34,336 nucleotides of DNA from a virus. A program made the position numbers and the translations under genes. Shown piece after piece: positions 1,567 to 26,362 of this stretch. Each line of letters opens with the position of its first letter. The stretch's first letter is position 1. The DNA lies in the IMG/VR virus record IMGVR_UViG_3300037504_000541, positions 1-34,336 of that record. One strand, given 5' to 3'. The notes under the pieces are model-generated. The model was not told where the DNA came from. It searched no databases and saw nothing but the letters and a program-made list of their open reading frames with translations.

Positions 1567-2409
1567 ATGCCTACCCTGAACCCCGACGGCTGGAGCGTCA
1601 AAGGCTGCTCGATTATCTATGCCCCACGCGGGCAAGCTGGCGAGTATTCCAGGCTGGCCACAAACCCCTATCGCGGATGCGGGCATCAGTGCGCCTATTG
1701 CTATGTGCCCAAAGTGCTGCGCATGCCGCGTCCCGAGTTTGACGCCGGTGCGGAGCCGCGCCCCGAGTTTCTTGATAAGTTGCGCAAAGATGCGGCGAAG
1801 TACCAGACACTTGGTATCACCGAACAGGTGATGCTGTCGTTCACGACAGACCCCTACCACCCATTCGACAACTCGCTCACGCGTCCTGTGCTGCAAACAC
1901 TGCAAGCCCACGGTCTGGGCATTTGCACGCTCACAAAGGGCGGCAGTCGTGCATTGCGCGACCTTGATTTGTTCAGGCCAGAGCGGGATGCGTTCGCCAG
2001 CACGCTCACGTCGTTGGATGATGATTTCAGCCAGAAATGGGAACGCGGTGCAGCAGTGCCCGATGATCGCATCAATACGTTGCGTCTGTTCCACAAGGAG
2101 GGAATCTTCACGTGGGTTAGCTTGGAGCCGACACTGAGTACCGAGGCCAGTTTGCAGATCATTGAGCATACGCACGAGTTTGTTAATCTGTATAAAATAG
2201 GCAGGGCAAACTATTTGCCAATGACTGGCACCACCGATTGGGAGAGGTACACCTATCGCATTCTTGAGTTGTGCCATCGCCTTGGCGTGCGGCATTACAT
2301 CAAAAAAGACCTGCAAGGGTATCTCCCGGTGGGATACGAAAACCCGCGCTATATCACACAGCATCACGGTTCGGCTCCTGCAAAGACTGAGCAACTCGCT
2401 CTACTATAA
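1567..2409 (+). CDS. Radical SAM protein of the SplB/COG1533 type
   Basis: A 280-residue protein. The cluster-binding motif CGHQCAYC has cysteines at residues 38, 42 and 45 (CX3CX2C), the signature that binds the [4Fe-4S] cluster used to cleave S-adenosylmethionine. The arrangement (RGCGHQCAYCYVP followed by a TIM-barrel-like sequence with VMLSFTTDPYHP and LTKGGS) is that of the spore-photoproduct-lyase-like SPL family, whose phage and bacterial members mostly lack known substrates. The ATG at 1567 is chosen over an upstream in-frame ATG at 1534 because GGAG sits seven bases before it. It is the only rightward gene inside a leftward late block, has its own promoter, and its last 56 bases overlap the convergent methyltransferase 2. 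This is typical of an added (moron-like) gene. Function is not assignable beyond the family. Confidence 0.85.
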   Translation: MPTLNPDGWSVKGCSIIYAPRGQAGEYSRLATNPYRGCGHQCAYCYVPKVLRMPRPEFDAGAEPRPEFLDKLRKDAAKYQTLGITEQVMLSFTTDPYHPFDNSLTRPVLQTLQAHGLGICTLTKGGSRALRDLDLFRPERDAFASTLTSLDDDFSQKWERGAAVPDDRINTLRLFHKEGIFTWVSLEPTLSTEASLQIIEHTHEFVNLYKIGRANYLPMTGTTDWERYTYRILELCHRLGVRHYIKKDLQGYLPVGYENPRYITQHHGSAPAKTEQLALL

Positions 2410-3562
2410 GTCCTTCCGCCTCGCAGCGTTGCAAGATAACCTCGCAGTATGCCTCGCTGATCTCGCACCCATAGCATCGGCGTCCGGTACGGTGGGCTGC
2501 GATAATGGTGGTGCCGGAGCCGAGGAATGGGTCATATAGCACACCGTCAGTGCAATTTGCAATCAGCATGCGCACCCAATCCAGCGGTTTTTCGTGAGAA
2601 TGGCGACCATCGGCATGTAGTTTGGTTATTGGGGCAACAAATACATCAGACAGGTGCTTGCCACGAGGATCAGGCGTAAATTCATATTCTCCGCGTGTAT
2701 TGCGTACTATGCGTTCATCACCGACCTCACCGTAATGTGCGCCATCAAATTGGTAATTTGCAACATCCCCATACCAAAACGCGAATTTGCCTCGTTGCAA
2801 CGGACGATTAGGGGTATACCACGATGTCACACAATCCCATACAAATACCCACGTAGGGGAGCCAAATAGCGTTATAACATCAGCGGCGCGTCGCCCATCG
2901 CAAAATGCCAGCACAGTACTGGTTGTGTCTGCTGTATACGACACGGCAGCATCCCACGGAGGGTCGTATATCACCGCGTCCGCCCGCTCGCATTGCATCA
3001 GCCGCTCCACCGTCGCTGGGTCGGTGCAGTCTCCACAGATGAGCCGATGCATGCCGCCGATGAGCCACACGTCACCCGCCTGTACGCGGCATGGTGCGGC
3101 GTCGTCGGGTTCAAACTCATCGCCACCGCTGCCGGTTTCGGGAAGTTCCGGCGTCAACCCATCGAGTAATGCGCTATACTCCTGCTCATCGAATCCCAGG
3201 CTATTCAGATCGAAATCAGCCTGCTGCAACTCGTCAAGCAGCGCGGCAAGTCCGGCGTCGTCGGATTCAGCCCCGCGTCGCGTCTCGTTGTCGGCGACGA
3301 GGTAGGCGAGCGCCTGCTCTTCTGTCCAGTCGTCTGGTAGTTGCGTGACACGCAACGTCTGGTAGTTGAGGTGCTGCGCTACCAGGTACACGCCGTGGCC
3401 TGCGATGATGGTATCGCCGTGCACCACAATCGGGCGTACCTGCCCAAACTGGCGCAGGCTGGCAGCAAGCCGCTCAATCTGCTCTGGCGGATGCTGATTG
3501 TAGTTGCGCGAGTGCGGTGCCAGCGTATCAATGTCGCGTGTTGTCTCGATTGGTTCAGTCAT
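2354..3562 (-). CDS. ParB-domain DNA methyltransferase 2 (paralogue of the gene at 140-1426)
   Basis: A 402-residue protein from the ATG at 3562 (MTEPIETT, the same start peptide as the paralogue). An upstream in-frame ATG at 3610 would add 16 residues but lies inside the preceding small gene. A ParB-like domain occupies residues about 10-95, motif IV is DPPW at 200-203 and the SAM motif FLGSGT is at 346-351. The arms are close to those of methyltransferase 1, while the central 204-342 region, holding the target-recognition part, is unrelated by eye and Trp replaces Tyr in motif IV. It probably methylates a different sequence. The start overlaps the stop of the upstream 54-residue gene (ATGACTGA), indicating translational coupling. 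Confidence 0.9.
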   Translation of the reverse strand: MTEPIETTRDIDTLAPHSRNYNQHPPEQIERLAASLRQFGQVRPIVVHGDTIIAGHGVYLVAQHLNYQTLRVTQLPDDWTEEQALAYLVADNETRRGAESDDAGLAALLDELQQADFDLNSLGFDEQEYSALLDGLTPELPETGSGGDEFEPDDAAPCRVQAGDVWLIGGMHRLICGDCTDPATVERLMQCERADAVIYDPPWDAAVSYTADTTSTVLAFCDGRRAADVITLFGSPTWVFVWDCVTSWYTPNRPLQRGKFAFWYGDVANYQFDGAHYGEVGDERIVRNTRGEYEFTPDPRGKHLSDVFVAPITKLHADGRHSHEKPLDWVRMLIANCTDGVLYDPFLGSGTTIIAAHRTGRRCYGCEISEAYCEVILQRCEAEGLIVERVAQSLQEPNRDAV

Positions 3563-3719
3563 CTCGATATCGTATGCGTTTTTGCCAATCAGAAATGCGA
3601 TCGAGCACATTGAATATTTCAGCGAACACCACTAACGCCAACCCCCCCCCCAACGCACCAGCGAACACCATAGCCGACACTCCGATCATGAGTATAGATA
3701 AATCGTACAGCGTATCCAT
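3555..3719 (-). CDS. Small probable membrane protein (54 aa)
   Basis: A 54-residue ORF with a hydrophobic segment at residues about 8-37 (LILIG-type start, then VFAGALGGG and LALVVFAEIF) followed by a basic, amphipathic C-terminus (RISDWQKRIRYRDD). This is the layout of a single-pass membrane protein with a cytoplasmic tail. AGGGG lies seven bases before the ATG. The three glycines at 24-26 are encoded within a run of ten G, a slippage-prone tract. The stop overlaps the start of methyltransferase 2. No family is recognised. A holin-like or superinfection-type role cannot be excluded, but nothing in the sequence shows it. Confidence 0.6.
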   Translation of the reverse strand: MDTLYDLSILMIGVSAMVFAGALGGGLALVVFAEIFNVLDRISDWQKRIRYRDD

Positions 3720-5920: not shown

Positions 5921-6478
5921 TTACATGTTCCCTATGCGCGGCAGCATAACAGACGGAGTCCATTCCGCCTCTGGCGTATTGTAGCGCCCTGTATAGAGCG
6001 TTGTGTTGTCCTCCACAACATGGAATTTAATCAGACCGATGCGCATGCCAGGATAGAGCAAAATGGCATCCGGGCTGTAGTTAAACAACTCCAATGTCCA
6101 ACGCGAGCAATAGCCCGCGTCACCAATGCCTGCCGAGACATGGACTGTCAGCCCCCATCGAGCCGCGGTGCTTCTGGTTTCCAGTGTTGGTTCAATATCC
6201 GGCACCGTCGTGCCGATGTGCTCATCGGTGTGCGCCAGCGCGAACGATAACGACGGCAGCCGGAACGGATTATCTGGTGCCACATCGGCAACGAGCATGA
6301 AACGTCCTTCTGGTGCCTGTGTGGCAATGTCCACGTCGCGGCCCATCGGGCGCGGTATCCAAAAATTACTTCCCAGATGTACATCGATATGTGTCTCGAT
6401 ACGACATTGCGGCGCTGGCGTGCAGACAATGCTGCCATTGGCCAGTGCTGTCTGTATGGCGTCATTTCCTAATATCAC
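5921..6478 (-). CDS. dcd: dCTP deaminase / dUTPase-family nucleotide enzyme
   Basis: A 185-residue protein. It contains ETRSTAARWGL, matching the RSSxAR motif of dCTP deaminase, then AGIGDAGY...TLELFN with the catalytic-type Glu in TLEL, then LYPGMRIGLIKF, the family's C-terminal signature. Dcd deaminates dCTP to dUTP (or dUMP in bifunctional forms) and supplies thymidylate precursors in the cytoplasm. The start is a GTG at 6478 with AAGGAG seven bases upstream. The same frame stays open far upstream through the GC-rich array, but that extension has no ribosome site and is repeat translation. It is the last gene of the leftward early operon. The usual DPG triplet is DAG here, so deaminase activity is likely but not certain. 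Confidence 0.8.
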   Translation of the reverse strand: MILGNDAIQTALANGSIVCTPAPQCRIETHIDVHLGSNFWIPRPMGRDVDIATQAPEGRFMLVADVAPDNPFRLPSLSFALAHTDEHIGTTVPDIEPTLETRSTAARWGLTVHVSAGIGDAGYCSRWTLELFNYSPDAILLYPGMRIGLIKFHVVEDNTTLYTGRYNTPEAEWTPSVMLPRIGNM

Positions 6479-6541
6479 GGTTAATCTCCTTCTGCAACTC
6501 AGTTGTTGTATGGGCAGTTTGCGAACGTGCCCAGGTTCCCA

Positions 6542-6897
6542 TGCCTCGCCATGCCCAGCCCGGCCTCGCCCTGCCCCGCCTAGCCCCGCCCCGCCTGCCT
6601 CGCCCTGCCGCGCCATGCCTGGCCCTGCCGCGCCGTGCCAAACCCCGCCTTGCCTAGCCCCGCCTGCCTCGCCATGCCGCGCCGCGCCGTGCCTGCCCCG
6701 CCTGCCTCGCCATGCCGCGCCACGCCGCGCCAGGCCTCGCCAGGCCTCGCCTCGCCTGGCCGCGCCCCGCCCTGCCTGCCTCGCCATGCCTTGCCAAGCC
6801 AAACCCGGCCAAGCCCTGCCCCGCCATGCCCCGCCTGCCGCGCCATGCCATGCCTCGCCCTGCCAGAGCTAGCCACACCTTGCCACGCCTGCCGTGT
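6542..6897. repeat. Array 1 of the degenerate pentamer GCCNN (about 70 units)
   Basis: About 355 bases in which GCC recurs every five bases on the plus strand (GCCTC, GCCAT, GCCCT, GCCCC, GCCGC, GCCTG and similar), with an occasional four-base step. Positions 4 and 5 vary while GCC is nearly invariant. There is almost no sequence of any other type. It fills the 419-base gap between the deaminase start (6478) and the stop of the next gene (6898); the remaining bases 6479-6541 hold the deaminase ribosome site and no recognisable promoter. On the operon's mRNA the array reads as GGC every five nucleotides, so it is very G-rich on the transcribed product. Long ORFs in several frames here are artefacts of the repeat. 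Confidence 0.9.
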
Positions 6898-7608
6898 CTA
6901 ATCCGGGTCGGGGTAACTGTCAACCACTGCCACAATGGGCGCGAAGAACTTGTTATGCTGATAGCTTTTCGCCCACGTTTTCAAAACCCGAAGAGCTTTT
7001 TTGTCCTTTTCTGATAGTTCGGTTGCAGCAGGCGACGGTGCAGCCACACGCAAAGGTTGCGGCTGTGGGTCGGGGTGCGCAGTGGTAGTCGGTTCGGGTT
7101 GCGGTTGCGGTTGCGGTTGCGGCTGTGGGTCGGGTTGCGGTTCAGGTTGCGCCGCCTCCTGTTTGATGGTCGATACCTCATACGTGCGCGTGGTGCTTGC
7201 CTTTGGTGCAGGGAGCCGCTGCACTTCGAGCATCCGAAACTTCCCTGTCTGCTCACGGTTGCCCGCCCCAAGAGCAGCATAGGCGCGCTCACTATCCTTG
7301 AGGATTTCGCCGGTTTGTGGGTTGCGCCACACAATAGCCAGCGAGCGAAATACCACCCGCAACTGCTCACGGCGGCGCTGGCGTACTGCCTCATCAAGAC
7401 TCTCTCTGGTAAGATACTCATGCAGCGGGTGCGATGGATCGTTCTCAGCATCGTCAATGATCGCATCGCTGTCAACCTTGCCGCCTGCATCCTGGTAGCG
7501 CTCCAACGCGTTCCCGATGATATCGGCGTCCATTGTTTTGTCAATCCAGGATGTATCAAGCCAGCCGTAGCCGTGCTTGAGGAAGACTGGTGTGTGTTGT
7601 GTGGTCAT
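6898..7608 (-). CDS. Hypothetical protein with a proline-glutamine repeat linker
   Basis: A 236-residue protein with a charged N-terminal domain (residues 1-105, including IIDDAENDPSHPLHEYL and RQRRREQLRVVFRSLAIVWRN), a low-complexity linker at about 155-190 built from PQ, PEP and DPQ repeats, and a C-terminal helical tail (SEKDKKALRVLKTWAKSYQHN). The start overlaps the stop of the upstream gene by four bases (ATGA), with GAGGAAGG as ribosome site, so the two are coupled. The linker is encoded by a GGTTGC-type hexamer repeat on the plus strand. The family is not recognised; by operon position it probably acts with the protein encoded at 7605-8213. Confidence 0.75.
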   Translation of the reverse strand: MTTQHTPVFLKHGYGWLDTSWIDKTMDADIIGNALERYQDAGGKVDSDAIIDDAENDPSHPLHEYLTRESLDEAVRQRRREQLRVVFRSLAIVWRNPQTGEILKDSERAYAALGAGNREQTGKFRMLEVQRLPAPKASTTRTYEVSTIKQEAAQPEPQPDPQPQPQPQPQPEPTTTAHPDPQPQPLRVAAPSPAATELSEKDKKALRVLKTWAKSYQHNKFFAPIVAVVDSYPDPD

Positions 7609-8213
7609 TGCTGACCTTCCTCTACTTCCACGCTGTCAACACGGAACATACCCCACGCACCATCTTTCTCTGGGCGAAACTCCCCAACCCCAACCGAGAA
7701 ACCTGCCTGGTCAATCAGTGCCAGAAGCTGCTCCAGCGTCAATGCTCTACGGTTGAGTCGGATAGGTAGTGTGGCGCTCCACTCTGGGAATCCGGGGCGA
7801 TATCGCAGATCAGCAGTCCCGTTCCCGATACGGACGGTATCCTCGCGCATGCGAGGTTCGCCCTCGATAGGAACAAACTCCCCATCGATGTGGAGCGCGC
7901 CACGCAAAAACGTCATCGGCAACCCGTCAACTTGCCGAGCTGCGCTCACGATTGCGCCCTTAAATGCCACAGACGGGAAACAGGGATGCCCGTCGGGGAG
8001 GCGGTAAAATGCCTCCTCGTAATCCTGCTGAGGGTCTTTTACCTCGCGTTTTTGAGCAGCCTTTCCCATCTGCTTGTCCAACATTTGTTTCTTTGCTTTG
8101 TCACTCCACGCGTGCATAACTAGTTCCGATATGCCGACAATCCGAACGTTCACCCGGAGAATATCAATCCCCGGAACTTCCACTTTCCCGTCCTTTTTGG
8201 CTGTTGCTGCCAT
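7605..8213 (-). CDS. Phage protein with a RAMP/Cas7-like glycine-rich C-terminus
   Basis: A 202-residue protein starting at the ATG at 8213 behind GGAGG. Residues about 70-90 (GHPCFPSVAFKGAIVSAAR) and 120-145 (REDTVRIGNGTADLRYRP, then EWSATLPIRLN) precede a C-terminal GVGEFRPEKDGAWGMFRV. That ending resembles the glycine-rich loop of RAMP-fold RNA-binding proteins (Cas7/Csf2-like), and a KGA...AAR segment in the middle is also common in them. The resemblance is by motif only. No other CRISPR gene or repeat array is present, so a CRISPR role is not implied; a nucleic-acid-binding structural role is plausible. It is coupled to the gene at 6898-7608. Confidence 0.7.
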   Translation of the reverse strand: MAATAKKDGKVEVPGIDILRVNVRIVGISELVMHAWSDKAKKQMLDKQMGKAAQKREVKDPQQDYEEAFYRLPDGHPCFPSVAFKGAIVSAARQVDGLPMTFLRGALHIDGEFVPIEGEPRMREDTVRIGNGTADLRYRPGFPEWSATLPIRLNRRALTLEQLLALIDQAGFSVGVGEFRPEKDGAWGMFRVDSVEVEEGQQ

Positions 8214-8247
8214 TGTGTTACCTCCGTCAGGTTATGAATAAAATCCA

Positions 8248-8379
8248 AGCCTCGCCTAGCCCCGCCCAGCCTGGCCCTGCCCATCCCGGCCTAGCCCCGC
8301 CCCGCCTGCCACGCCTGCCTCGTCATGCCTTGCCCAGCCGTGCCATGCCCCGCCCTGCCCTGCCTGGCCTAGCCCTGTC
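8248..8379. repeat. Array 2 of the degenerate pentamer GCCNN (about 27 units)
   Basis: The same GCCNN pentamer architecture as 6542-6897, in the same orientation, filling the gap between the start of the gene at 8213 and the stop of the gene at 8389. Read along the operon mRNA, both arrays begin with the same boundary, TAGACA(C/G)GGC, immediately after the upstream coding region, and end in GGCGAGGC(A/T)TGG. Confidence 0.9.
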
Positions 8380-8388
8380 TACCACATC

Positions 8389-8583
8389 TTAGATAGACAT
8401 TGACATCATTATACCCAATAAACACCTTGTGTCAATGTGCATCAGCTCCTTCACCAGCGATTCTGCAACTGTTGCGCGATATTCATATTCCACACGTTGC
8501 GCCTCTGTGCGCGCCTGCCGTGCGAATTTGCGATATTGTTGTGCGAGTTTTAGCAACTCAACAGGGTTGTATGTCTGTTTCAC
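8389..8583 (-). CDS. Small basic helical protein (64 aa)
   Basis: A 64-residue protein beginning at a GTG at 8583 with AAGGTGA upstream, inside the end of the RusA gene (stop and start overlap). The sequence is a charged helix (LLKLAQQYRKFARQARTEAQRVEYEYRATV, described here in two parts of the same helix) followed by a hydrophobic tail (LLGIMMSMSI). No family is recognised. It precedes the second pentamer array. Confidence 0.6.
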   Translation of the reverse strand: MKQTYNPVELLKLAQQYRKFARQARTEAQRVEYEYRATVAESLVKELMHIDTRCLLGIMMSMSI

Positions 8584-8999
8584 TGCTCACCTTCTAAAAT
8601 CTTGCGCCGTTTCCTGGGGCGCTCCACCGGTAGCGGGCGCGGCACCTGCTGCAATCTGATCACGAGCCGAGGGTTATTCGGTGCAATGCCTCCAAAATGG
8701 ATGGCATTGCCCACAACCCGTTGCCAGTTGTCATCGATGTGCAGGTGCTCACACAGCGCGTCAATCGGTAGTTTTTCATAGTTTGCCAGATCTCTCAACA
8801 CGTTATTCGGCAAAAAGGCATACATTGTAATGATGATTGCCTTGTCATCAGGCACCGTGTAGCCACGCAAACTAATGGCGAGCAACTGCGACGCCTCTTC
8901 CTTCCAGGCACGGCCTTTCTTGCCCAAGCGCCGCCCGCCACTCCTGTCGGTTGGGTATGCCGTATTTGCCGACGGAGGAAATGGTAGTTCAATCTGCAC
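8580..8999 (-). CDS. rusA: RusA-like Holliday-junction resolvase (possibly altered active site)
   Basis: A 139-residue protein with the RusA opening LPFPPSANTAY and the metal-site region RDLANYEKLPIDAL at residues 69-82, followed by IDD at 88-90. RusA resolves Holliday junctions and trims branched DNA during phage recombination. In characterised RusA the region reads RDxDN with Asp at both positions plus a later Asp and a Lys. Here D70, K76, D80 and D89/D90 are present, but the second Asp of RDxDN is Ala (A72). The start is a GTG at 8999 with GGAG nine bases upstream, within the last codons of the PAPS-reductase-like gene. Confidence 0.8.
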   Translation of the reverse strand: MQIELPFPPSANTAYPTDRSGGRRLGKKGRAWKEEASQLLAISLRGYTVPDDKAIIITMYAFLPNNVLRDLANYEKLPIDALCEHLHIDDNWQRVVGNAIHFGGIAPNNPRLVIRLQQVPRPLPVERPRKRRKILEGEQ

Positions 9000-9900
9000 G
9001 CTCGTACACTCCTATGACTTCAGCCTGCATCGCCACTCGATTATCACAGCCAACACACAGCGGAAAGAAATCAGATTGCCCCTCTGGTACGCGCTGTCGC
9101 GCCCAGCGGCGGGCGTGCTCTGGTGTGGCTGCCCATCCCCAGACATTGTAGTCGTCGCGGGCTGCCTGTACTGCCTCTTCAATCCGATCCAGATCGGCGG
9201 CGAAAGCAGGATAGAAAAACCTGTCCACATCGCGCTCGCCTATCGTCGCATACGCACCGCATTTGCATTCTCCTGACATGCATAGCCGCTCCGATACTGG
9301 ATTGACAGGCAGGTTGTGCGCCGTTGTGTATTCATCGCGTTGATATTTGTCGAGATAGTACAGCGGCGATGACCAGTAGCAGCCAGTTTTGACATCGCGC
9401 TGCATAATGGTAGATGTCCTCATTCGACGGTGGCTTTCTTGTCGCCGCATACCGTTAACAATTAAAATCCTATCGCCGCGTCGCTCCTTAATGTGCCGCA
9501 AAAACATAGCCAGCGGGCGCTGTTTCAATCGGTTGTACATTTTGCGATGGTGATCCGGGCCGGGGAACCCATGCTCAATACACAACCGCTCATAAATTTG
9601 CGGATCAGGTGTGCCATCAGCACGGCAGTTATCCACAGCCCGATACTCCCAGAGCAGCCAGCCGCGATCCTGACACACGTCGCGCACAAACTGGCGTGTT
9701 TCCTCAATACCAATGCCTGTGTTGAGGTGCAAAACGCCTGCAAAACGCGGGTGCTGACTGGCGATGTGTGCAGCCGCGATACTGTCGCGCCCGCCTGACA
9801 CGGCAGCCACGACGATACGCGGCTCATACGCTGCTACGGCAGCGCGTAGAATAGATTCAGGTTCAGGTGTTTCCACAAATGTCTGTTGTTGTTCCATCAC
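8989..9900 (-). CDS. PAPS-reductase-family PP-loop enzyme (phage type)
   Basis: A 303-residue protein with the PP-loop SGGRDS at residues 35-40, then LHLNTGIG and a long alpha/beta domain. Near the C-terminus are CMSGECKCG and CVGC, five cysteines that could bind an iron-sulfur cluster or zinc. PP-loop enzymes of this superfamily adenylate or reduce sulfur compounds; relatives include CysH and the phosphorothioation protein DndC. Phages often carry such genes without the rest of the sulfur pathway. Whether this acts on sulfate, tRNA or DNA cannot be told. The start is GTG 9900 or ATG 9897. It overlaps the RusA gene and follows a pentapeptide-repeat gene in the same operon. Confidence 0.82.
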   Translation of the reverse strand: MMEQQQTFVETPEPESILRAAVAAYEPRIVVAAVSGGRDSIAAAHIASQHPRFAGVLHLNTGIGIEETRQFVRDVCQDRGWLLWEYRAVDNCRADGTPDPQIYERLCIEHGFPGPDHHRKMYNRLKQRPLAMFLRHIKERRGDRILIVNGMRRQESHRRMRTSTIMQRDVKTGCYWSSPLYYLDKYQRDEYTTAHNLPVNPVSERLCMSGECKCGAYATIGERDVDRFFYPAFAADLDRIEEAVQAARDDYNVWGWAATPEHARRWARQRVPEGQSDFFPLCVGCDNRVAMQAEVIGVYERAD

Positions 9901-10730: not shown

Positions 10731-11417
10731 TTATAACAGAACCAGTTGTTTGTCTGATTTCAGCATCTCATGAGTTTCCAATGGTTCCTCATCCATATCC
10801 ATCGCTGCAATTTCGTTGAGTGCGTCCCGAATATCCCTACCATCAACCTCATTACCAATACATGTCCAACCAGGTCGTTTCCGACGGGCAAACAGTTCCA
10901 GGTATGGACCGTTAATCAGTCGTTCGATTTCATCCTGGAATCGTTCCGGTTTCTCGCTGTGCCTGCCACGTTTTTCTCGAAATGTCGTCATCTCGGTGTG
11001 TTCAAGCAACTCCTGAACTTGCTTTACATCCCTGGCTAGACGTGTTGGCGATCCTCGTGTTGCCAACCACAGCGACTCGCTATTAGATCGTGTCCAGTAT
11101 CCGAGGCCAGAGAATGGCATAAGATTTTTAGGGTTAAGCTTGACCCACACAAACGCGACTGTTTTGAATACAAACCGCCATGACTCCAACAATTTAATAT
11201 ATTCAGGGATGTGCGGATTGCACGCCCAGAGAAACAGGGCACAATCCTCATCAGCAACCCTGTCTATGTAATCCCCGAGCGCGTGGATATCCTGCCATGT
11301 CATTAATTCATAGTGACTGGCTGCGCTGGCCTGTCGCAACCGTCGCGTTGGCAATGCAGGTCCGCTATAGGTATTGTAGGGGACCGGTGGGTCCACCAAT
11401 ATCGCCTTGAATCGCAT
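10731..11417 (-). CDS. MT-A70-family adenine methyltransferase (DPPV variant)
   Basis: A 228-residue protein from the ATG at 11417 (GGAAGG nine bases upstream). It contains the family landmarks in order: LVDPPVPYNTYSG near residues 7-19, HYELMTWQDIHAL, CALFLWACNPHIPEY, FKTVAFVWVK, GLGYWTRSNSESLWLATRG, HSEKPERF, and GPYLELFARRKRPGWTCIGNEVDG. MT-A70 enzymes transfer methyl from SAM to adenine N6 in DNA or RNA. The catalytic tetrapeptide is normally DPPW; here it is DPPV, a rare change at a stacking position. An upstream in-frame ATG at 11447 would overlap the preceding gene further. Likely role: phage DNA protection. Confidence 0.88.
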   Translation of the reverse strand: MRFKAILVDPPVPYNTYSGPALPTRRLRQASAASHYELMTWQDIHALGDYIDRVADEDCALFLWACNPHIPEYIKLLESWRFVFKTVAFVWVKLNPKNLMPFSGLGYWTRSNSESLWLATRGSPTRLARDVKQVQELLEHTEMTTFREKRGRHSEKPERFQDEIERLINGPYLELFARRKRPGWTCIGNEVDGRDIRDALNEIAAMDMDEEPLETHEMLKSDKQLVLL

Positions 11418-11652
11418 ACTCAAGAACCTTCCGCGTATATTTCTCAATATTCACATCCACACATGCCTCCTCTGACTCACGTCCTCGAAGTATCTCCGAC
11501 AGGGTCAGGGGGCGATATGGGAACGCATTAAACTCGTAGCCGCAACCGCAAACAAATGCTTTGCGGAGCTTCACCTGCTCATATATCTGTTGGCGCGACA
11601 ATATTGTCGCACACGACGGGCATATAGCCACGTCAAAAAACCCATCCTTCAT
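11365..11652 (-). CDS. Small zinc-ribbon-like protein
   Basis: A 95-residue protein. CPSC at residues 11-14 and CGC at 35-37 form a probable four-cysteine zinc ribbon, followed by YEFNAFPYRPLTLSEIL. The start overlaps the stop of the upstream HTH gene (ATGA) with GGGAGGG as ribosome site. Its last 53 bases overlap the start of the MT-A70 gene in another frame. No specific function; a nucleic-acid-binding adaptor is plausible. Confidence 0.7.
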   Translation of the reverse strand: MKDGFFDVAICPSCATILSRQQIYEQVKLRKAFVCGCGYEFNAFPYRPLTLSEILRGRESEEACVDVNIEKYTRKVLEYAIQGDIGGPTGPLQYL

Positions 11653-19739: not shown

Positions 19740-20597
19740 ATGGAAAGAGGTATGAAACCGATCATCGCATACTACGGCGGCAAGCAGCGGATTGCCTCGC
19801 GCATTGTAGACGTTATCTGCACTATCCCGCACAAGGTTTATGTGGAACCATTTGCAGGTGGCGCGTCTGTGATGTTCGCCAAGGGCAAACCGATTCCCAA
19901 TAATCATGATGATTATCGGGAATGCGTAAACGACAGCGACGAGCGAATTGTGACGCTCTATCGCGTATGCCAGGAGCAGAAAGAGGATTTGCTACACCTG
20001 CTGCACCACACGCCATACAGCCAGGCAGAGCATCGCAGGGCGCACGCAATAATGCGGGCACCGCACGAATACACGCCGCTGCGCGTGGCCTGGGCGGTGG
20101 TTGTCCAGACCCGCCAGTCGTTTGCAAACAGCATAGGTAAGGGGTGGGGAACAGGCGTAAAGACAAAGAACCACGCACAAACATGGGCAACGTATCTGCA
20201 ATGGCTGCCCGCCATACTGGAACGATTCAGCGGCGTGTATGTGTCGTGCGAGGATGCCATCAGATGTATTCAGCGATGGGATAGTCCCGACACGCTGTTC
20301 TATTGCGACCCGCCCTACCCTGACACAAATCAGGGGCATTACAGCGGCTACACCCTGGAGGACTGGCACGCGCTGTGTGACGTGTTGGATGCGTGCCAGG
20401 GAAGTTACATCCTGAGCAACTATCCGCAGACTACGGAACCAGCGTCGGCACAGCGCAGGGTAGAAATACAGGCCGTGATGAGCGCAGAGAACAGCAAGAC
20501 CCGCACGAATAATCAACGCACTGAGTGTTTGTGGGTTTGTAACCGTGGGCAGCGGCAGCAAACTTCATTATTCGATGCAATACTGGAGGGTCACTAA
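19740..20597 (+). CDS. Dam-type (D12 class) N6-adenine DNA methyltransferase
   Basis: A 285-residue protein. IAYYGGKQRIA at residues 9-19 and VEPFAGGAS at 35-43 form the SAM-binding region, and CDPPYPDT at 189-196 is catalytic motif IV, the order of alpha-class Dam/D12 enzymes. These enzymes methylate adenine N6, often in GATC. The start at 19740 has AGGAG nine bases upstream; ATG 19752 (MKPIIAYYGGK) is an alternative. It overlaps the following small gene by TAATG. With the Dcm-type gene nearby, it would protect replicated phage DNA. Confidence 0.9.
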   Translation: MERGMKPIIAYYGGKQRIASRIVDVICTIPHKVYVEPFAGGASVMFAKGKPIPNNHDDYRECVNDSDERIVTLYRVCQEQKEDLLHLLHHTPYSQAEHRRAHAIMRAPHEYTPLRVAWAVVVQTRQSFANSIGKGWGTGVKTKNHAQTWATYLQWLPAILERFSGVYVSCEDAIRCIQRWDSPDTLFYCDPPYPDTNQGHYSGYTLEDWHALCDVLDACQGSYILSNYPQTTEPASAQRRVEIQAVMSAENSKTRTNNQRTECLWVCNRGQRQQTSLFDAILEGH

Positions 20598-20860
20598 TGG
20601 CACGCAAACCTGATCACCATCCCAACCAGGCTAACCTGGAGATGAGCGGGGTGCAGCAGTACTGCCCACTGTCCGATCTCGCAGCGCTGGCCGAGCGCCG
20701 CCGCGTACTATACGCGGAACTCGAACGGCTAATATCCACGCTCGGCATCGATGCGCATACCGCGCCATACTGGACATTGGACAACGACGATGCCCCACCG
20801 TGGTACAGCCTGCCGAGAGCCGTGGAACGGCTGCGAGAGCAAGTAGAGGGGATGGGATGA
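20597..20860 (+). CDS. Small hypothetical protein (87 aa) between two methyltransferases
   Basis: An 87-residue protein, coupled to both neighbours by overlapping stop/start codons (TAATG and TGATG). It has a helical core (LSDLAALAERRRVLYAELER), a Trp/Pro-rich segment (YWTLDNDDAPPWYSLP) and a C-terminal helix (RAVERLREQVEGMG). No family is recognised. It may assist one of the methyltransferases, by position only. Confidence 0.7.
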   Translation: MARKPDHHPNQANLEMSGVQQYCPLSDLAALAERRRVLYAELERLISTLGIDAHTAPYWTLDNDDAPPWYSLPRAVERLREQVEGMG

Positions 20861-21990
20861 TGCGAACATTTGCCTCGCTCTTTAGCGGCGGCGGTGGCGC
20901 TGATATTGGCGCGATTCAGGCAGGCTACACGCCGATATGGGCTGTCGAGTATGACGCAGCCATAGCCGCCTGGCACACGCACAACATGCCTGATGCACAG
21001 ATGATTGTGGGTCCTGTGCAGGATGTGGATTATGGCGCGTTGCCTGCTGTGGCCTGGTTGCACGCAAGCCCGCCGTGTCCGAATTTCAGCGTTGCTAAAA
21101 ACAATGCCACTGAAACTGAACTGGATATCGAGATGGCACGCGGCACGACCCGCGCAATCCAGGAACAGCAGCCGCATGTGTTTAGTCTGGAGCAGGTCTA
21201 TGGTTATCGCAATAGCGTGTCATTTGCGCTGATTGTGCAGGCATTGCGTGCTCTACGGTATGACGTGCAATGGTGGCATCTGAACGCTGCTGAATACGGC
21301 GTGCCCCAGACGCGCCGCCGTCTAATCCTGGTGGCGCGCCGTGACAGGTACGTGGTGCGGCCTGCTGCTACGCACTGCAAAGACGGGCGCGCTGACATGT
21401 TCGGCGGGCTGTTGCCGTGGATTGGATGGTATGAGGCAATACAGGATATCATAGACACCCTGCCAGATAGCGAATTCGCGCCGTGGCAACTGGCACGCCT
21501 GCCTGCGAATGTGCGAGAGAGCGTGCTGCTGAGCAATGCACGGACCGAATACAGCAACGGGTTGTTTTCTGGCACCGAGCCGTCATTATCAATCACACGA
21601 CAACACAACGGACGGTTGCGCGCACTGCTGCTGGACGGGCAGGCCAACGCCAATGGCACAACCTGCACGAGCGTCGCTGATTGCGTGCCTGCGTTTGCGG
21701 TCAAGGCCCAGTCAGGAGCACGACACGCGGCGCGGGCGGTGTTGATAGGAGACGGTGACACATACCGTCCGGTGGTTTCTGGCAACGAACCATCTCCTAC
21801 ACATGGCGCGAGCGCCATTGCTCGCGCACTGGTGCCACACCGCGTCGTGAAAATGACACCGCGTGCGCTGGCGCGCTTTCAATCATTCCCCGACTGGTAT
21901 GAACTGCCACAGCGCAATGCACTGGCGGGCAGGATTATCGGCAATGCGGTTCCGCCGCTGTTGATGCAGCGGGTGATGGAATCCCAATGA
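20857..21990 (+). CDS. C5-cytosine DNA methyltransferase (Dcm type, EQV variant)
   Basis: A 377-residue protein from the ATG at 20857. Motif I is LFSGGGGADIGAIQAG (residues 8-23), the catalytic loop ASPPCPNFS has its Cys at 74, motif VI is LEQV at 111-114 (normally ENV), motif VIII is QTRRR at 151-155, and motif X is IIGNAVPPLL near the C-terminus. The enzyme transfers methyl to cytosine C5. Gln for Asn in ENV is uncommon but conservative. The target-recognition region (about 180-320) is variable. An upstream in-frame ATG at 20800 is inside the 87-residue gene and is not preferred. It is the last gene of the rightward early operon. Confidence 0.9.
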   Translation: MMRTFASLFSGGGGADIGAIQAGYTPIWAVEYDAAIAAWHTHNMPDAQMIVGPVQDVDYGALPAVAWLHASPPCPNFSVAKNNATETELDIEMARGTTRAIQEQQPHVFSLEQVYGYRNSVSFALIVQALRALRYDVQWWHLNAAEYGVPQTRRRLILVARRDRYVVRPAATHCKDGRADMFGGLLPWIGWYEAIQDIIDTLPDSEFAPWQLARLPANVRESVLLSNARTEYSNGLFSGTEPSLSITRQHNGRLRALLLDGQANANGTTCTSVADCVPAFAVKAQSGARHAARAVLIGDGDTYRPVVSGNEPSPTHGASAIARALVPHRVVKMTPRALARFQSFPDWYELPQRNALAGRIIGNAVPPLLMQRVMESQ

Positions 21991-22033
21991 GGACCAATTA
22001 TGCAGTAATTTGCTATCATATCCCTCACAGCTC

Positions 22034-22069
22034 TTGACACCACTGTATCATAGTGCTACAATGGTGTCA
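22034..22069 (+). promoter_or_regulatory. Cassette promoter A with overlapping dyad operator
   Basis: TTGACA (22034-22039), 17 bases, then TGC-extended TACAAT (22057-22062). TGACACCA at 22035-22042 and TGGTGTCA at 22062-22069 form an eight-bp inverted repeat spanning the promoter, a probable repressor site. The leader carries TGAAT-type pentamer repeats at about 22074-22107. The identical element recurs at 23979 and 26044. Confidence 0.85.
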
Positions 22070-22118
22070 GTTGGATGAATTGAATGAATTGAATTGAATG
22101 AATTGAGAGGACAGAATA

Positions 22119-22691
22119 ATGACACGAATAATGAGCCAGGCACGGATCGATGCACTGAACGAACAGATGGTAGACGGGAAAACTGTACACGAGGTGGCGA
22201 GAGAGAATGGTCTGGAACTGGTTCGGTGGTACGACGAGAGCGGCGGACTCTACAGAGACTACGACGGATATCTGGTGTTTGGATGGAACGAGGGTATAGA
22301 GATAGGTTTCGATGACCAGGTTTACGACGCAGATGGATGTTTATTATATTATGGCGACTACCCGACAATCCGTAGCTGGATTGACGGCTATCTGGAAACT
22401 GACATTGCAACTCTCGCCGACAAACTGCTGGCGGAAGATCCAAAGCGCACGCCAGCCTATGCCCGCGCTGTTGCGGGCGCAATGCTCGTGATGTTCTGGT
22501 CGCTAGAGCGCGAACGCCTGGATCACGCGGCAATGAATAGCACGCTCCCTGCCGACCTGGAATCGCTCTATGACCAGGTGTGCGCAGCCGAGGAAACGCC
22601 CTCGGGCTATGTGAACGACGTGATTGACCTGTCGGGCAATCGCGCCATCTGGAACGATGTGGACACACTGCGAGTAGGCCGTATGCCGTAA
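22119..22691 (+). CDS. Cassette protein A (190 aa, unknown)
   Basis: A 190-residue acidic protein. The first 55 or so residues (MTRIMSQARIDALNEQMVDG, then KTVHEVARENGLELVRWYDE and GGLYRDYDGYLVFGW) are shared with the two 77-residue proteins at 24064 and 26129. The remaining 130 are unique and include a helical bundle (RAVAGAMLVMFWSLERERLDH). The shared part has beta-strand and acidic character with no known family. GAGAGG precedes the ATG. It is the full-length or ancestral form of the duplicated gene. Confidence 0.75.
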   Translation: MTRIMSQARIDALNEQMVDGKTVHEVARENGLELVRWYDESGGLYRDYDGYLVFGWNEGIEIGFDDQVYDADGCLLYYGDYPTIRSWIDGYLETDIATLADKLLAEDPKRTPAYARAVAGAMLVMFWSLERERLDHAAMNSTLPADLESLYDQVCAAEETPSGYVNDVIDLSGNRAIWNDVDTLRVGRMP

Positions 22692-22999: not shown

Positions 23000-23243
23000 T
23001 TATGCAGCGATTATCGAAAACCGACAGGATGTCGTCATTTTATTGCAACCCCACCTGACGACGGAGCAGGTCAGAGCAGAGCAGACTCTTGATGGAATGG
23101 CATTGCGCCTGGTAGACATTCCTGATAAGCAATTCAATGCAATTCTAGAGATCCTGCGCAATGGGAAGGGCAAGCAGCCAGGTATCCCAAAACACAAACT
23201 TCGAATCTACGAACGTAAAAAAAGCGGTTGGAAGCGAGTCTGA
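22974..23243 (+). CDS. Small hypothetical protein (89 aa)
   Basis: An 89-residue protein with AAGGAG placed seven bases before the ATG. It starts MQRAINIFDYAAIIENRQDV and ends with a very basic tail (KQPGIPKHKLRIYERKKSGW), suggesting nucleic-acid contact. No family is recognised. Downstream is the first copy of the cassette leader hairpin. Confidence 0.68.
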   Translation: MQRAINIFDYAAIIENRQDVVILLQPHLTTEQVRAEQTLDGMALRLVDIPDKQFNAILEILRNGKGKQPGIPKHKLRIYERKKSGWKRV

Positions 23244-23267
23244 TCTAAACAATTCAATTATACGCCC

Positions 23268-23290
23268 GCCCGGAGGCATCGTATCCGGGC
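23268..23290 (+). promoter_or_regulatory. Cassette leader hairpin, copy 1
   Basis: GCCCGGA and TCCGGGC with a nine-base loop lie 12 bases upstream of the ribosome site of pentapeptide-repeat gene 2. The same hairpin precedes pentapeptide-repeat gene 3 (24314-24336) and stands alone at 26379-26401. Conservation in front of different genes suggests a leader regulating translation or mRNA stability. Confidence 0.65.
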
Positions 23291-23316
23291 TGGCAGTATA
23301 TAGGAGGGTAACCATA

Positions 23317-23916
23317 ATGGACATACAAAACATCTTGCATGCACATCAGTTGTGGCTGATGAACCCGCATCAGTATGGTGCTAGCTATGCCAACCTGCGC
23401 AAGGTCGACCTGCGCAGGGCTGACCTGCGCAGGGCCGACCTGCGCAGGGTCAACCTACGCATGGCAGACTTGCGCGGGGCTGCCCTAAGTAGGTCCGACC
23501 TACGCAAGGCAGACTTGCGCAGGGCAGACTTGCGCGAGGCCATCCTGCGTTATGCTGACCTGATCGAGGTGAGTATGAGCGGAGCTGTTCTGCACGGTGC
23601 CGACCTGAGCGGTGCTAACCTGTGTTGGGCCGACTTGAGCGGGGCAGACTTTCGCGGTGCAGACCTGCGCTACTCCGTCCTGAGCTATGCCGACCTGATC
23701 GGGGCCATCCTGAGCAACACCGACCTGAGCTACGCAAACCTGAGCGAGGCCGACTTTCGCTATGCCGACCTGAGCGGGGCTGACCTGAGTTACGCCATCT
23801 TGAGCTATACCGACTTGAGCGGCGCAAACCTCGATGGTGCCGACCTGAGCGGGGCCATAACTACGGGCACTATCGGGTTGGAGTCGGCACCTGGCATGAA
23901 CGGGGTGTCAGGATGA
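23317..23916 (+). CDS. Pentapeptide-repeat protein 2
   Basis: A 199-residue protein from the ATG at 23317 (AGGAGGG seven bases upstream), in place of a longer frame that would start inside the upstream gene. The opening [20 protein letters not shown] is followed by about 32 pentapeptides (A-D/N-L-x-x), first Arg-rich (ADLRR repeats), then Ser/Gly-rich (ADLSG), interrupted by LIEVSMS. The ending is [13 protein letters not shown] then MNGVSG. A right-handed quadrilateral beta-helix is expected, with a basic first half and more neutral second half. It groups with protein 3 rather than 1 and 4. Molecular target unknown. Confidence 0.9.
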   Translation: MDIQNILHAHQLWLMNPHQYGASYANLRKVDLRRADLRRADLRRVNLRMADLRGAALSRSDLRKADLRRADLREAILRYADLIEVSMSGAVLHGADLSGANLCWADLSGADFRGADLRYSVLSYADLIGAILSNTDLSYANLSEADFRYADLSGADLSYAILSYTDLSGANLDGADLSGAITTGTIGLESAPGMNGVSG

Positions 23917-23932: not shown

Positions 23933-23978
23933 CTATGACCAATTATGCAGTAATTTGCTATCATATCCCTCACAGCTC

Positions 23979-24014
23979 TTGACACCACTGTATCATAGTG
24001 CTACAATGGTGTCA
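23979..24014 (+). promoter_or_regulatory. Cassette promoter B with dyad operator
   Basis: TTGACA (23979-23984), 17 bases, TACAAT (24002-24007), with TGACACCA (23980-23987) and TGGTGTCA (24007-24014) as inverted repeats, identical to promoter A. Confidence 0.85.
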
Positions 24015-24063
24015 GTTGGATGAATTGAATGAATTGAATTGAATGAATTGAGAGGACAGAATA

Positions 24064-24297
24064 ATGACACGAATAATGAGCCAGGCACGGATCGATGCAC
24101 TGAACGAACAGATGGTAGACGGGAAAACTGTACACGAGGTGGCGAGAGAGAATGGTCTGGAACTGGTTCGGTGGTACGACGAGAGCGGCGGACTCTACAG
24201 AGACTACGACGGATATCTGGTATTTGGATGGGTATATGGAGACGAGGGGTTCGATGACCAGATTAGCGATGACGATATTGACGATGACCATGTGTAA
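24064..24297 (+). CDS. Cassette protein B (77 aa, truncated paralogue)
   Basis: A 77-residue protein identical in its first 55 or so residues to the 190-residue cassette protein A, then ending in an acidic tail (DDQISDDDIDDDHV). It lacks the helical domain of protein A. It is identical to the protein at 26129. The strongly acidic end is unusual and could mimic nucleic acid, which is speculation. Its start and ribosome site are shared with the other copies. Confidence 0.72.
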   Translation: MTRIMSQARIDALNEQMVDGKTVHEVARENGLELVRWYDESGGLYRDYDGYLVFGWVYGDEGFDDQISDDDIDDDHV

Positions 24298-24313
24298 CTG
24301 ATGTTTTACGCCC

Positions 24314-24336
24314 GCCCGGAGGCATCGTATCCGGGC
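24314..24336 (+). promoter_or_regulatory. Cassette leader hairpin, copy 2
   Basis: The same GCCCGGA/TCCGGGC stem with nine-base loop as at 23268, followed directly by the AGGAGG ribosome site of pentapeptide-repeat gene 3. Confidence 0.65.
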
Positions 24337-24348
24337 AGGAGGCTACAG

Positions 24349-25074
24349 ATGATTGATCTGCAAAACATTTTACAGTCACACAATATGTGGCTGATGAACC
24401 CGCATCAGGATGGTGCTAGCTATGCTGACCTACGCATGGCCGACCTACGCATGGCCGACCTGCGCAGGGCCGACCTGCGCATGGCCGACCTGCGCAGGGC
24501 CGACCTGCGCATGGCCGACCTGCGCAGGGCCGACCTGCGCAGGGCGGCCATGAGCAATGCCGACCTATACAAAGCCGACTTGCGCAGGGCTGATCTGCGC
24601 AGGGCCGACCTGCGTTATGCTGACCTGATCGAGGTGAGTATGAGCGACGCTATTCTGTACACTGCCGACCTGAACTATGCCAATCTACGCAACGCAGACC
24701 TGAGCGGTGCCAACCTGATCAGTGCTAACCTGCGCTGGGCCGTCCTGTGCTATGCCGACCTGAGTGATGCCAACCTGAGCGGTGCTAACCTGTGTTGGGC
24801 CAACCTCAGCGAGGCCGACTTGCGCTATGCCGACCTGAGTGATGCCAACCTGAGCGGGGCAGACTTGAGTGATGCAGACCTGAGCATGGCCAACCTCAGA
24901 GGGGCCATCCTGAGCGGTGCCATCCTGAGCGGTGCCATCCTGAGCGGTGCCAACCTGAGAGGGGCCGACCTGAGCGGGGCCGACTTGAGTGATGCAGACC
25001 TGAGCGGGGCCATAACTACGGGCACTATCGGGTTGGAGTCGGCACCTGGTTTCATGTGCGAGGTGTCAGGATGA
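24349..25074 (+). CDS. Pentapeptide-repeat protein 3
   Basis: A 241-residue protein from the ATG at 24349 (AGGAGG upstream), the longest of the four, with about 40 pentapeptides, roughly ten turns of a quadrilateral beta-helix. The N-terminal part alternates ADLRM and ADLRR and is basic; the C-terminal part is [22 protein letters not shown] interrupts the series at the same place as in protein 2. It ends [13 protein letters not shown] then EVSG. Within it, three perfect 30-bp DNA repeats (24451-24540) show recent expansion. The excisionase-like gene starts at its stop (ATGA). Confidence 0.9.
24451..24540 (+). repeat. Three perfect 30-bp tandem repeats inside pentapeptide-repeat gene 3
   Basis: Units at 24451-24480, 24481-24510 and 24511-24540 are identical and each encodes two pentapeptides ([10 protein letters not shown]). 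Gain or loss of units keeps the frame and changes the beta-helix length by half a turn per unit. Confidence 0.9.
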
Positions 25075-25310
25075 CTGACACTACTATGACCACAGCCGAG
25101 GTTGCCGAATTTCTCGGCGTCCGCGTGCACACGGTGTATACATATATCCGTCGCGGACGCCTGGAACGTGTACCAAGCACTGGCCGTACGGCTCGCATTA
25201 CCCGCGACAGCGTGGAACGCTATGCCGCCGAGCGTGGTCAGCGGGCACGGAAACCGATGGAGGAACTCAGCGAACGGCAGCAGTATAGGCGAAAAACGAA
25301 AACTAGTTGA
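25071..25310 (+). CDS. Excisionase/MerR-like helix-turn-helix protein
   Basis: A 79-residue protein. [20 protein letters not shown] then [29 protein letters not shown] is the standard excisionase-family DNA-binding domain (HTH_17). Such proteins bend DNA at attachment sites or act as small regulators. The ATG at 25071 overlaps the stop of pentapeptide-repeat gene 3 (ATGA); the in-frame ATG at 25056 is less likely. No integrase is in the window, so it may regulate the cassette region instead of controlling excision. Confidence 0.8.
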
Positions 25311-25321
25311 ATAGGGGAATA

Positions 25322-25963
25322 ATGGACATGCAAAACATTTTGCATGCACATCAGTTGTGGCTGCAAAATCCACATCAGGATGGTGCAAAACCCGCCAATC
25401 TCCGCGGTGTTAACCTGCGCGGTACCAACCTGAACGGGGCTGACCTGCGCGGTGCAGACCTGCGCATGGCCAACCTGAGCGGTGCTAATCTGCGCTGGGC
25501 CATCCTGAGCGGGGCTGACCTGCGCAGGGCTGACTTGCGTAGTGCCGACATGAGCAGGGCCAATCTGAGCGGTGCCAACCTGCGCAGGGCTGACTTGCGT
25601 AGTGCCGACATGAGCAAGACCGATTTGCACATTGCAGACCTGTTCAATACCAACCTGAGTCATGCCATCCTGCGTTATTCCGACATAAGCAAGACCGACA
25701 TGATCGGGGCCGATCTGCGCGGTGCAGACCTGAGCGGGTCAAACCTACGCAACACTAACCTGAGCTACGCCAACCTGAGCGGTGCCGACCTGAGCGGCGC
25801 AGACCTGAGCGGCGCAGACCTGAACGTCGCCATCTTGAGCGGTGCCAACCTGAGCGGCGCAGACCTGCGCATGGCTGATCTGCGCATGGCTGATCTGCGC
25901 AGTGCCATAACTACGGGCACTATCGGGTTGGATGTGATTGGTATGAATGGGGTGCCAGGATGA
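25322..25963 (+). CDS. Pentapeptide-repeat protein 4
   Basis: A 213-residue protein from the ATG at 25322 (AGGGG four to five bases upstream). Its opening ([20 protein letters not shown], then [23 protein letters not shown]) and ending ([14 protein letters not shown]) match the minus-strand protein 1, so these two form one subfamily. About 34 pentapeptides lie between. A 60-bp segment encoding [12 protein letters not shown] occurs twice in tandem. It lies 12 bases after the excisionase-like gene and is followed by a hairpin (25943-25979) and cassette C. Confidence 0.9.
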
Positions 25964-26043
25964 ACGACACCCCGTTCATCTATGACCATCGTGAATAACC
26001 AATATATTTATGCAGTAATTTTCTATCATATCCCTCGCAGCTC

Positions 26044-26079
26044 TTGACACCACTGTATCATAGTGCTACAATGGTGTCA
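26044..26079 (+). promoter_or_regulatory. Cassette promoter C with dyad operator
   Basis: TTGACA (26044-26049), 17 bases, TACAAT (26067-26072), with the TGACACCA/TGGTGTCA inverted repeat ending at 26079, identical to copies A and B. Confidence 0.85.
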
Positions 26080-26128
26080 GTTGGATGAATTGAATGAATT
26101 GAATTGAATGAATTGAGAGGACAGAATA

Positions 26129-26362
26129 ATGACACGAATAATGAGCCAGGCACGGATCGATGCACTGAACGAACAGATGGTAGACGGGAAAACTGTACAC
26201 GAGGTGGCGAGAGAGAATGGTCTGGAACTGGTTCGGTGGTACGACGAGAGCGGCGGACTCTACAGAGACTACGACGGATATCTGGTATTTGGATGGGTAT
26301 ATGGAGACGAGGGGTTCGATGACCAGATTAGCGATGACGATATTGACGATGACCATGTGTAA
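26129..26362 (+). CDS. Cassette protein C (77 aa, identical to cassette protein B)
   Basis: The predicted protein is identical to that at 24064-24297, including the acidic tail. It is the last rightward gene before the convergent tail operon. Because no pentapeptide-repeat gene follows, this copy shows that the promoter-plus-small-gene unit can exist without a cargo gene. Confidence 0.7.
   Translation: MTRIMSQARIDALNEQMVDGKTVHEVARENGLELVRWYDESGGLYRDYDGYLVFGWVYGDEGFDDQISDDDIDDDHV

Follow-up and report, generated by a model that had tools for sequence, protein, structure and literature searches.

What is a run of GCC triplets, set five bases apart with two variable bases after each, doing between the genes of a phage operon? 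Here we follow up such an array, predicted from sequence alone, in a viral contig of 34,336 nt (IMG/VR record IMGVR_UViG_3300037504_000541), whose full length we call the window. The array anatomy, the homology and fold of an adjoining protein, the linkage of the two, and largely conserved boundaries and tails around variable NN letters were all observed here; on this basis the locus is almost certainly a phage-encoded VIPR (Viral Interference Programmable Repeat) system with arrays that serve as tandem vrRNA (guide RNA) genes, and it is a new member of an already known system.

As described in the main text of a bioRxiv preprint (version 2, June 2026; PMC13142463), VIPR comprises a RAMP protein (Vipr), in most cases a single vap gene, and flanking vrRNAs, and is found mostly in phages and prophages. 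A vrRNA is built of 9-16 GGY/NN repeats and ends in a constant 3' tail. Its NN pairs read double-stranded DNA, passing over one base (as a rule the wobble base), and transcription is repressed; competing phages and satellites are the targets. The same text characterises systems from the SUSP1 phage and a Pseudomonas fulva prophage, and suggests that class 1 CRISPR may descend from VIPR (PMC13142463).

Two degenerate arrays in one operon

The features of the locus are listed by position.

5921..6478, minus strand: dCTP deaminase gene, start codon GTG at 6478, downstream of array 1
6508..6540, minus strand: tail A, GGGAACCTGGGCACGTTCGCAAACTGCCCA, putative constant 3' end of array 1, shared at 91-95% identity by four sister phages
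6543..6893, minus strand: putative vrRNA array 1, modules bounded by GGCA
6546-6595: array 1 module, RNA-sense NN: GG GG TA GG AG GA CG TG AT GA
6600-6664: array 1 module, RNA-sense NN: GG TA AA GG TT AC GC AG CA AT GC AG GA
6669-6693: array 1 short module
6698-6702: array 1 one-unit piece
6707-6776: array 1 module, RNA-sense NN: AG GG GC CA GA GA CT GA CT GC GT GC AT GA
6781-6835: array 1 module, RNA-sense NN: GG AT GG AG TT CG TT TT AA AT GA
6840-6889: array 1 module, RNA-sense NN: GT AA GT TA CT AG GA AT AT GC
6898..7608, minus strand: candidate vap (accessory) gene, 236 aa, sharing 4 nt with the end of vipr
7605..8213, minus strand: vipr, RAMP protein, 202 aa, phrog_4652, with a C-terminal G-loop-like GVGEFRP...G.F
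8232..8248, minus strand: tail C, GGCTTGGATTTTATTCA type, putative constant 3' end of array 2, mostly retained by the sister phages
8249..8374, minus strand: putative vrRNA array 2, on the leader side of vipr
about 8247-8306: array 2 module, NN: GG GG TA CG TG AG CA TG GG TA GA TT
8320-8374: array 2 module, NN: TA CA AG AG GG AT AC TG AA AT GA
8408..8435, minus strand: predicted operon promoter, TTGACA, 16 nt, TATAAT

The periodicity first noticed is real: array 1 contains 69 GCC triplets on the plus strand (6529-6893, with the regular part at 6543-6893), and 56 of the 68 spacings are 5 nt, with seven of 4 nt and five of 10 or 14 nt. The window has 50 occurrences of four successive GCCNN units, where 200 mononucleotide shuffles give 0.005 on average, and a search of both strands found no run of even three outside the two arrays. 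Because the flanking genes lie on the minus strand, the transcript reads GGC-NN, which bears out the predicted strand-biased array with GGC every five nucleotides. The original prediction overlooked the second array (24 GCC triplets on the same strand as array 1), the identity of the 4-nt spacings, every one of which is GCCT (GGCA in RNA), and the codon-defined boundaries: both arrays start 5-15 nt past a stop codon and end 35-65 nt ahead of the next start codon.

Over 81 RNA-sense units from both arrays, the third position is C in 78 and T in three (78 GGC, 3 GGT), in a count anchored on GGY, so that both Gs are invariant by construction and T was the sole alternative to C counted. The NN pairs use 14 of the 16 dinucleotides, with entropies of 1.78 bits at position 4 and 1.93 bits at position 5. 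The claim that these positions vary freely is thus nearly accurate, but they would not be mere filler, since by homology they probably carry guide information. The view that the constraint acts on nucleic acid rather than on protein also stood. Period-5 arrays are open in all frames except where NN is TA, so the long ORFs in the arrays are merely mechanical; we rejected a coding reading, as the 4-nt units break every frame.

About seven GGCA-bounded pieces make up array 1, five of them guide-sized; its internal modules have no tail, and the run of some 70 units carries a single one. Two GGCA units part the modules of array 2. A GGGC/GCCC hairpin is the minimum-energy fold of three of four tail A sequences, with energies no better than those of shuffles, and an Rfam search of the window gave no match, and so no hammerhead at the gathering threshold. 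The predicted promoter, a consensus match only (12 of 12 sigma-70 consensus bases), lies ~33 nt upstream of array 2 and is followed in order by array 2, vipr, the candidate vap gene and array 1. The dCTP deaminase gene beyond is not thought to belong to the VIPR system and is regarded as cargo outside it.

Elsewhere in the window, three 300-bp direct repeats (21998-22297, 23943-24242 and 26008-26307), 97-99% identical and ~2 kb apart, lie between genes for pentapeptide-repeat-like proteins (23161-23916, 24301-25074 and 25307-25963), a region that looks like a recent tandem duplication of a cassette. Two similar proteins (140-1426 and 2354-3610, minus strand) match phage ParB-like and N6/N4 DNA methyltransferase families, at least five methyltransferase genes are present (including 10731-11447, 19740-20597 and 20800-21990), and a PAPS-reductase-like protein (8989-9900, minus strand) is weakly similar to DndC.

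The adjoining protein is a Vipr homologue

The 202-aa protein ties the locus to VIPR. Its family profile matched SUSP1 Vipr (PDB 36pp_D) over positions 8-192 at E = 5.2e-44, the only strong PDB match, with a weak second match to Csm5; the window protein alone reached 36pp at E = 8.5e-6 in a single-sequence search. The AlphaFold model (pLDDT 91.9) had Csm3/Cas7-type RAMPs as its top Foldseek matches in the PDB (E = 3e-7, TM about 0.57), and in a viral structure library its best match was an uncharacterised viral protein and its third was annotated as a Cas RAMP superfamily protein. Residues G171, G175, G177, R180, G188 and F190 are invariant or nearly so in the family, and all 44 aligned members match phrog_4652, whose function is not known. 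The window thus combines homology to SUSP1 Vipr, a single-domain RAMP fold with a G-loop, and GGY/NN arrays with hypervariable NN; of the VIPR features testable in sequence, none was seen to fail there.

The candidate vap product is a divergent member (E = 7e-8) of a small family that adjoins vipr in many phage loci. Its moderate-quality model gave no significant PDB match and weak winged-helix-like matches only, and neither PADLOC nor NCBIfam holds a model for it or for Vipr. By eye, other small genes recur beside arrays, of a ParB-like and a winged-helix-like family (L049, L056, L081 and L111; L029, L043, L072, L105 and L124), and these are possible alternative vap genes.

Degenerate arrays form a class linked to Vipr

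Eight successive GCCNN units were found in at least 119 stretches of viral contigs, and 91 of the 119 among the matches listed have degenerate NN; the reversed control, CCGNN x8, gave 82 loci, of which none of the 81 measurable ones is degenerate. In bacterial and archaeal genomes, GCCNN x12 retrieves mostly ordinary microsatellites, and several degenerate arrays there accompany a Vipr gene (L132, L174, L232, L237 and L241). Degenerate GCCNN arrays are therefore a class, and a largely viral one. Contigs with Vipr homologues L132, L174, L193, L232, L237 and L241 are assigned to Fibrobacteres, Alphaproteobacteria, Bradyrhizobiaceae, Lokiarchaeota, Atopobiaceae and Bacteroidales MAGs.

Across 108 array-bearing viral contigs, the arrays show no mixing of strands, 191 of 212 four-base units are GCCT, and A or G is rare after GG. 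By simple ORF calling, 67 flanking gene pairs are oriented opposite to the GCC strand and 13 in its direction. When 1132 ORFs were clustered by BLAST, one cluster dominated, with 52 loci, proteins of about 214 aa and a median of 13 bp to an array, and the ORF at 7605-8213 is the window's member of it. A Vipr is detected by profile in 79 of the 108 contigs, a figure to be read with the fact that the other 43 sequences on which the profile was trained were drawn from these same contigs.

The linkage also holds in the reverse direction. The Vipr protein alone, with the array not used, fetched 36 viral loci. In 29 of them a degenerate array of 8 or more units lies within 2.5 kb in the same sense; antisense arrays of that size are absent from all 36. 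Four others (L400, L402, L403 and L405), from AT-rich phages, carry relaxed 5-nt arrays of GTT/GGT-NN consensus downstream of vap, in which GGCAG-like units are still visible; the contigs of L401, L404 and L406 end short of the expected array position. Such an array is present in 0 of 41 unrelated control loci (352 kb); CCG-selected loci were dropped as an array control because they are rich in GG runs, and three of 120 control loci were later found to carry Vipr. In all six named phages inspected, an array adjoins the Vipr homologue. The array is thus a phage element, as one of the original suggestions had it. It does occur in many unrelated phages, yet not at random, being vipr-adjoining, same-sense and just past a stop codon.

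Sister phages have similar boundaries and tails with different NN letters

Five contigs encode a Vipr 88-95% identical to that of the window, and the array locus recurs, with different NN letters, in contigs of other metagenomes, so it is not an isolated assembly artefact, a possibility that had been raised at the outset. The samples of the sister phages are IMG 3300037504, 3300037796 and 3300037341. The boundary TTAGACAC-GGCA-GGC is kept after the vap stop codon in L373, L374 and L376, and tail C is kept more loosely than tail A. The arrays themselves align at 73-84% only and in scrambled register, with the longer matches near the ~72% that, by our own arithmetic, is expected if the NN are unrelated. 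NN letters have thus been replaced wholesale between phages whose genes and tails remain 77-95% identical. One upstream module of L375 has its first six NN pairs in common with the window module at 6840-6889, so guides can also persist and move. Against the seven or so GGCA-bounded pieces of the window's array 1, the sisters have one to three.

What would the four-base units be for? Over the 108 contigs, successive GGCA-type units are separated by 7-13 units in 73% of 137 intervals, against 26% (maximum 42%) in 2000 shuffles of the steps within each run; this interval is about a guide length, and the arrays of the named mycobacteriophages and cyanophage likewise open with GGCA. We infer from these patterns that GGCA probably marks the start of a guide. 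In the window the GGCA-delimited modules mostly have 10-14 units. Staggered and other array formats are mentioned in the preprint's main text (PMC13142463); GGCA punctuation of stacked guides is possibly a new detail, which may already be known, and the stacking of several guide-sized modules on one tail is possibly another. A fuller proposal, which we put forward tentatively and at somewhat less than even likelihood, is that GGCA opens each guide of a tandem, mostly tail-less array, and that whole GGCA-bounded cassettes are gained, lost or replaced between near-identical phages, renewing guides without a Cas1-like adaptation module. The preprint's main text does not take up how phages write new vrRNA guides (PMC13142463). 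The window and its five sisters, with near-identical Vipr, the same boundaries and tails, and different guides, are a ready comparison set that makes the origin of new guides directly testable, and GGCA punctuation allows long arrays to be cut into guides for target prediction.

The proposed code and the search for targets

NN frequencies correlate with the dinucleotides at codon positions 1-2 of the same contigs at r = 0.49, while the five other frames show no such correlation (r from -0.35 to 0.13); NN were averaged over contigs, and only 16 dinucleotides enter the comparison. This is suggestive and agrees with guides that read coding DNA and pass over the wobble base, giving weak but independent support to the published one-base-skip rule. 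By analogy with the characterised systems, the window VIPR quite likely follows the same code.

Natural targets of the tested window guides were not found in viral contigs, sister phages or the window. Against the fetched loci, the window and the sister contigs, guides scored at chance level at every skip length, array self-matches aside. The 10-unit patterns of two modules matched no viral contig; 8-unit patterns of three modules matched 13, 4 and 24 loci, with neighbouring units matching at chance level. One target comparison showed an excess at skip 1, but the loci behind it had been retrieved with the same patterns, so it does not count as evidence. For a guide that mycobacteriophages SwagPigglett and Brocalys nearly share, no target was found in 401 genomes from the family to which a Nocardia genome belongs.

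Mechanism and rival explanations

RNA production, oligomerisation, the one-base skip, DNA binding and repression would be expected here from the SUSP1 and P. fulva systems. On that model, the single predicted promoter would give a transcript of array 2, vipr, vap and array 1, and Vipr would assemble as an oligomer on the GGC-NN RNA, in which every subunit grips a GGC and displays its NN pair; the early idea that the array binds a protein would then be right by homology. The NN pairs of one module of ~10-14 units would jointly recognise double-stranded DNA as NN-x-NN-x..., one base skipped, and the bound complex may repress a gene in a rival phage, satellite or prophage.

The arrays might instead be an autoregulatory RNA element: translation of the operon would be controlled through binding of Vipr, or of some other protein, to the GGC-NN leader and spacer RNA, and NN would mean nothing. 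TRAP binds (G/U)AG-NN repeats, a triplet with a two-base spacer, which the GGC-NN pattern resembles, and the arrays sit in the 5' leader and the 3' part of an RNA-binding protein's operon. A TRAP-type site proper was rejected, as it needs (G/U)AG and the window triplet is GGC/GGT (GCC/ACC on the other strand). Meaningless spacers leave unexplained the stacked 7-13-unit modules with GGCA punctuation and an NN usage that tracks codon positions 1-2; the wholesale change of NN around conserved genes and tails, and the experiments published on homologues in the preprint's main text (PMC13142463), also speak against autoregulation, which we consider very unlikely.

Two further readings are more improbable still. 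Expansion of a GCCNN microsatellite by slippage has precedent in exact GCCNN-type repeats, mainly of GC-rich bacterial genomes. Slippage yields identical copies, though, and here GCC is fixed while NN is nearly random, with 14 different pairs in 81 units; the degeneracy of GCCNN x8 (91 of 119 among the matches listed) against none of 81 for CCGNN x8, and the link of degenerate arrays to one protein family, leave this reading, and with it the suggested spreading simple-sequence element, scarcely any probability. A G-quadruplex or pausing element in the mRNA is hardly credible either: the two-tier quadruplexes once proposed might in principle arise from GG at five-nucleotide intervals, but these do not require the nearly constant C after GG, and the linkage to a RAMP gene would go unexplained. 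Triplets on opposite helical faces, transcription stalling and a packaging or host-factor array proved wrong or unsupported. A phage VIPR system is the reading we retain.

Comparison with known systems

Like VIPR as described in the preprint's main text, the window phage has a RAMP-type Vipr and one small candidate accessory gene, with GGY/NN arrays on both sides and putative constant 3' tails. It differs in that its Vipr is divergent from that of SUSP1 (single-sequence E = 8.5e-6) and that array 1 strings several modules, delimited by GGCA, on one tail; as given there, the vrRNAs characterised so far have 9-16 repeats with a tail each. A CRISPR-Cas array, which needs repeats of tens of bases and unique spacers, was rejected at a period of 5 nt, and no cas gene or family was found among the window ORFs searched. 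The protein nevertheless resembles the class 1 CRISPR-Cas backbone (Csm3, Cas7) in its RAMP fold and C-terminal glycine-rich motif, and oligomerisation on guide RNA would be expected of it by analogy; unlike CRISPR-Cas guides, the guide information in the window is non-contiguous, one NN per five bases. Counterparts in named phages are the homologous loci of Gordonia phages Pipp and ODay, mycobacteriophages SwagPigglett and Brocalys, cyanophage Cy-LDV1 and Pseudomonas phage LESphi2, of which the four actinobacteriophages (Gordonia, Mycobacterium) came from isolation on laboratory actinobacteria and are cultivable. In all six a homologous hypothetical protein is adjoined by same-sense GGC-NN arrays, with Vipr at 27-47% identity and with guides and tails that differ from those of the window.
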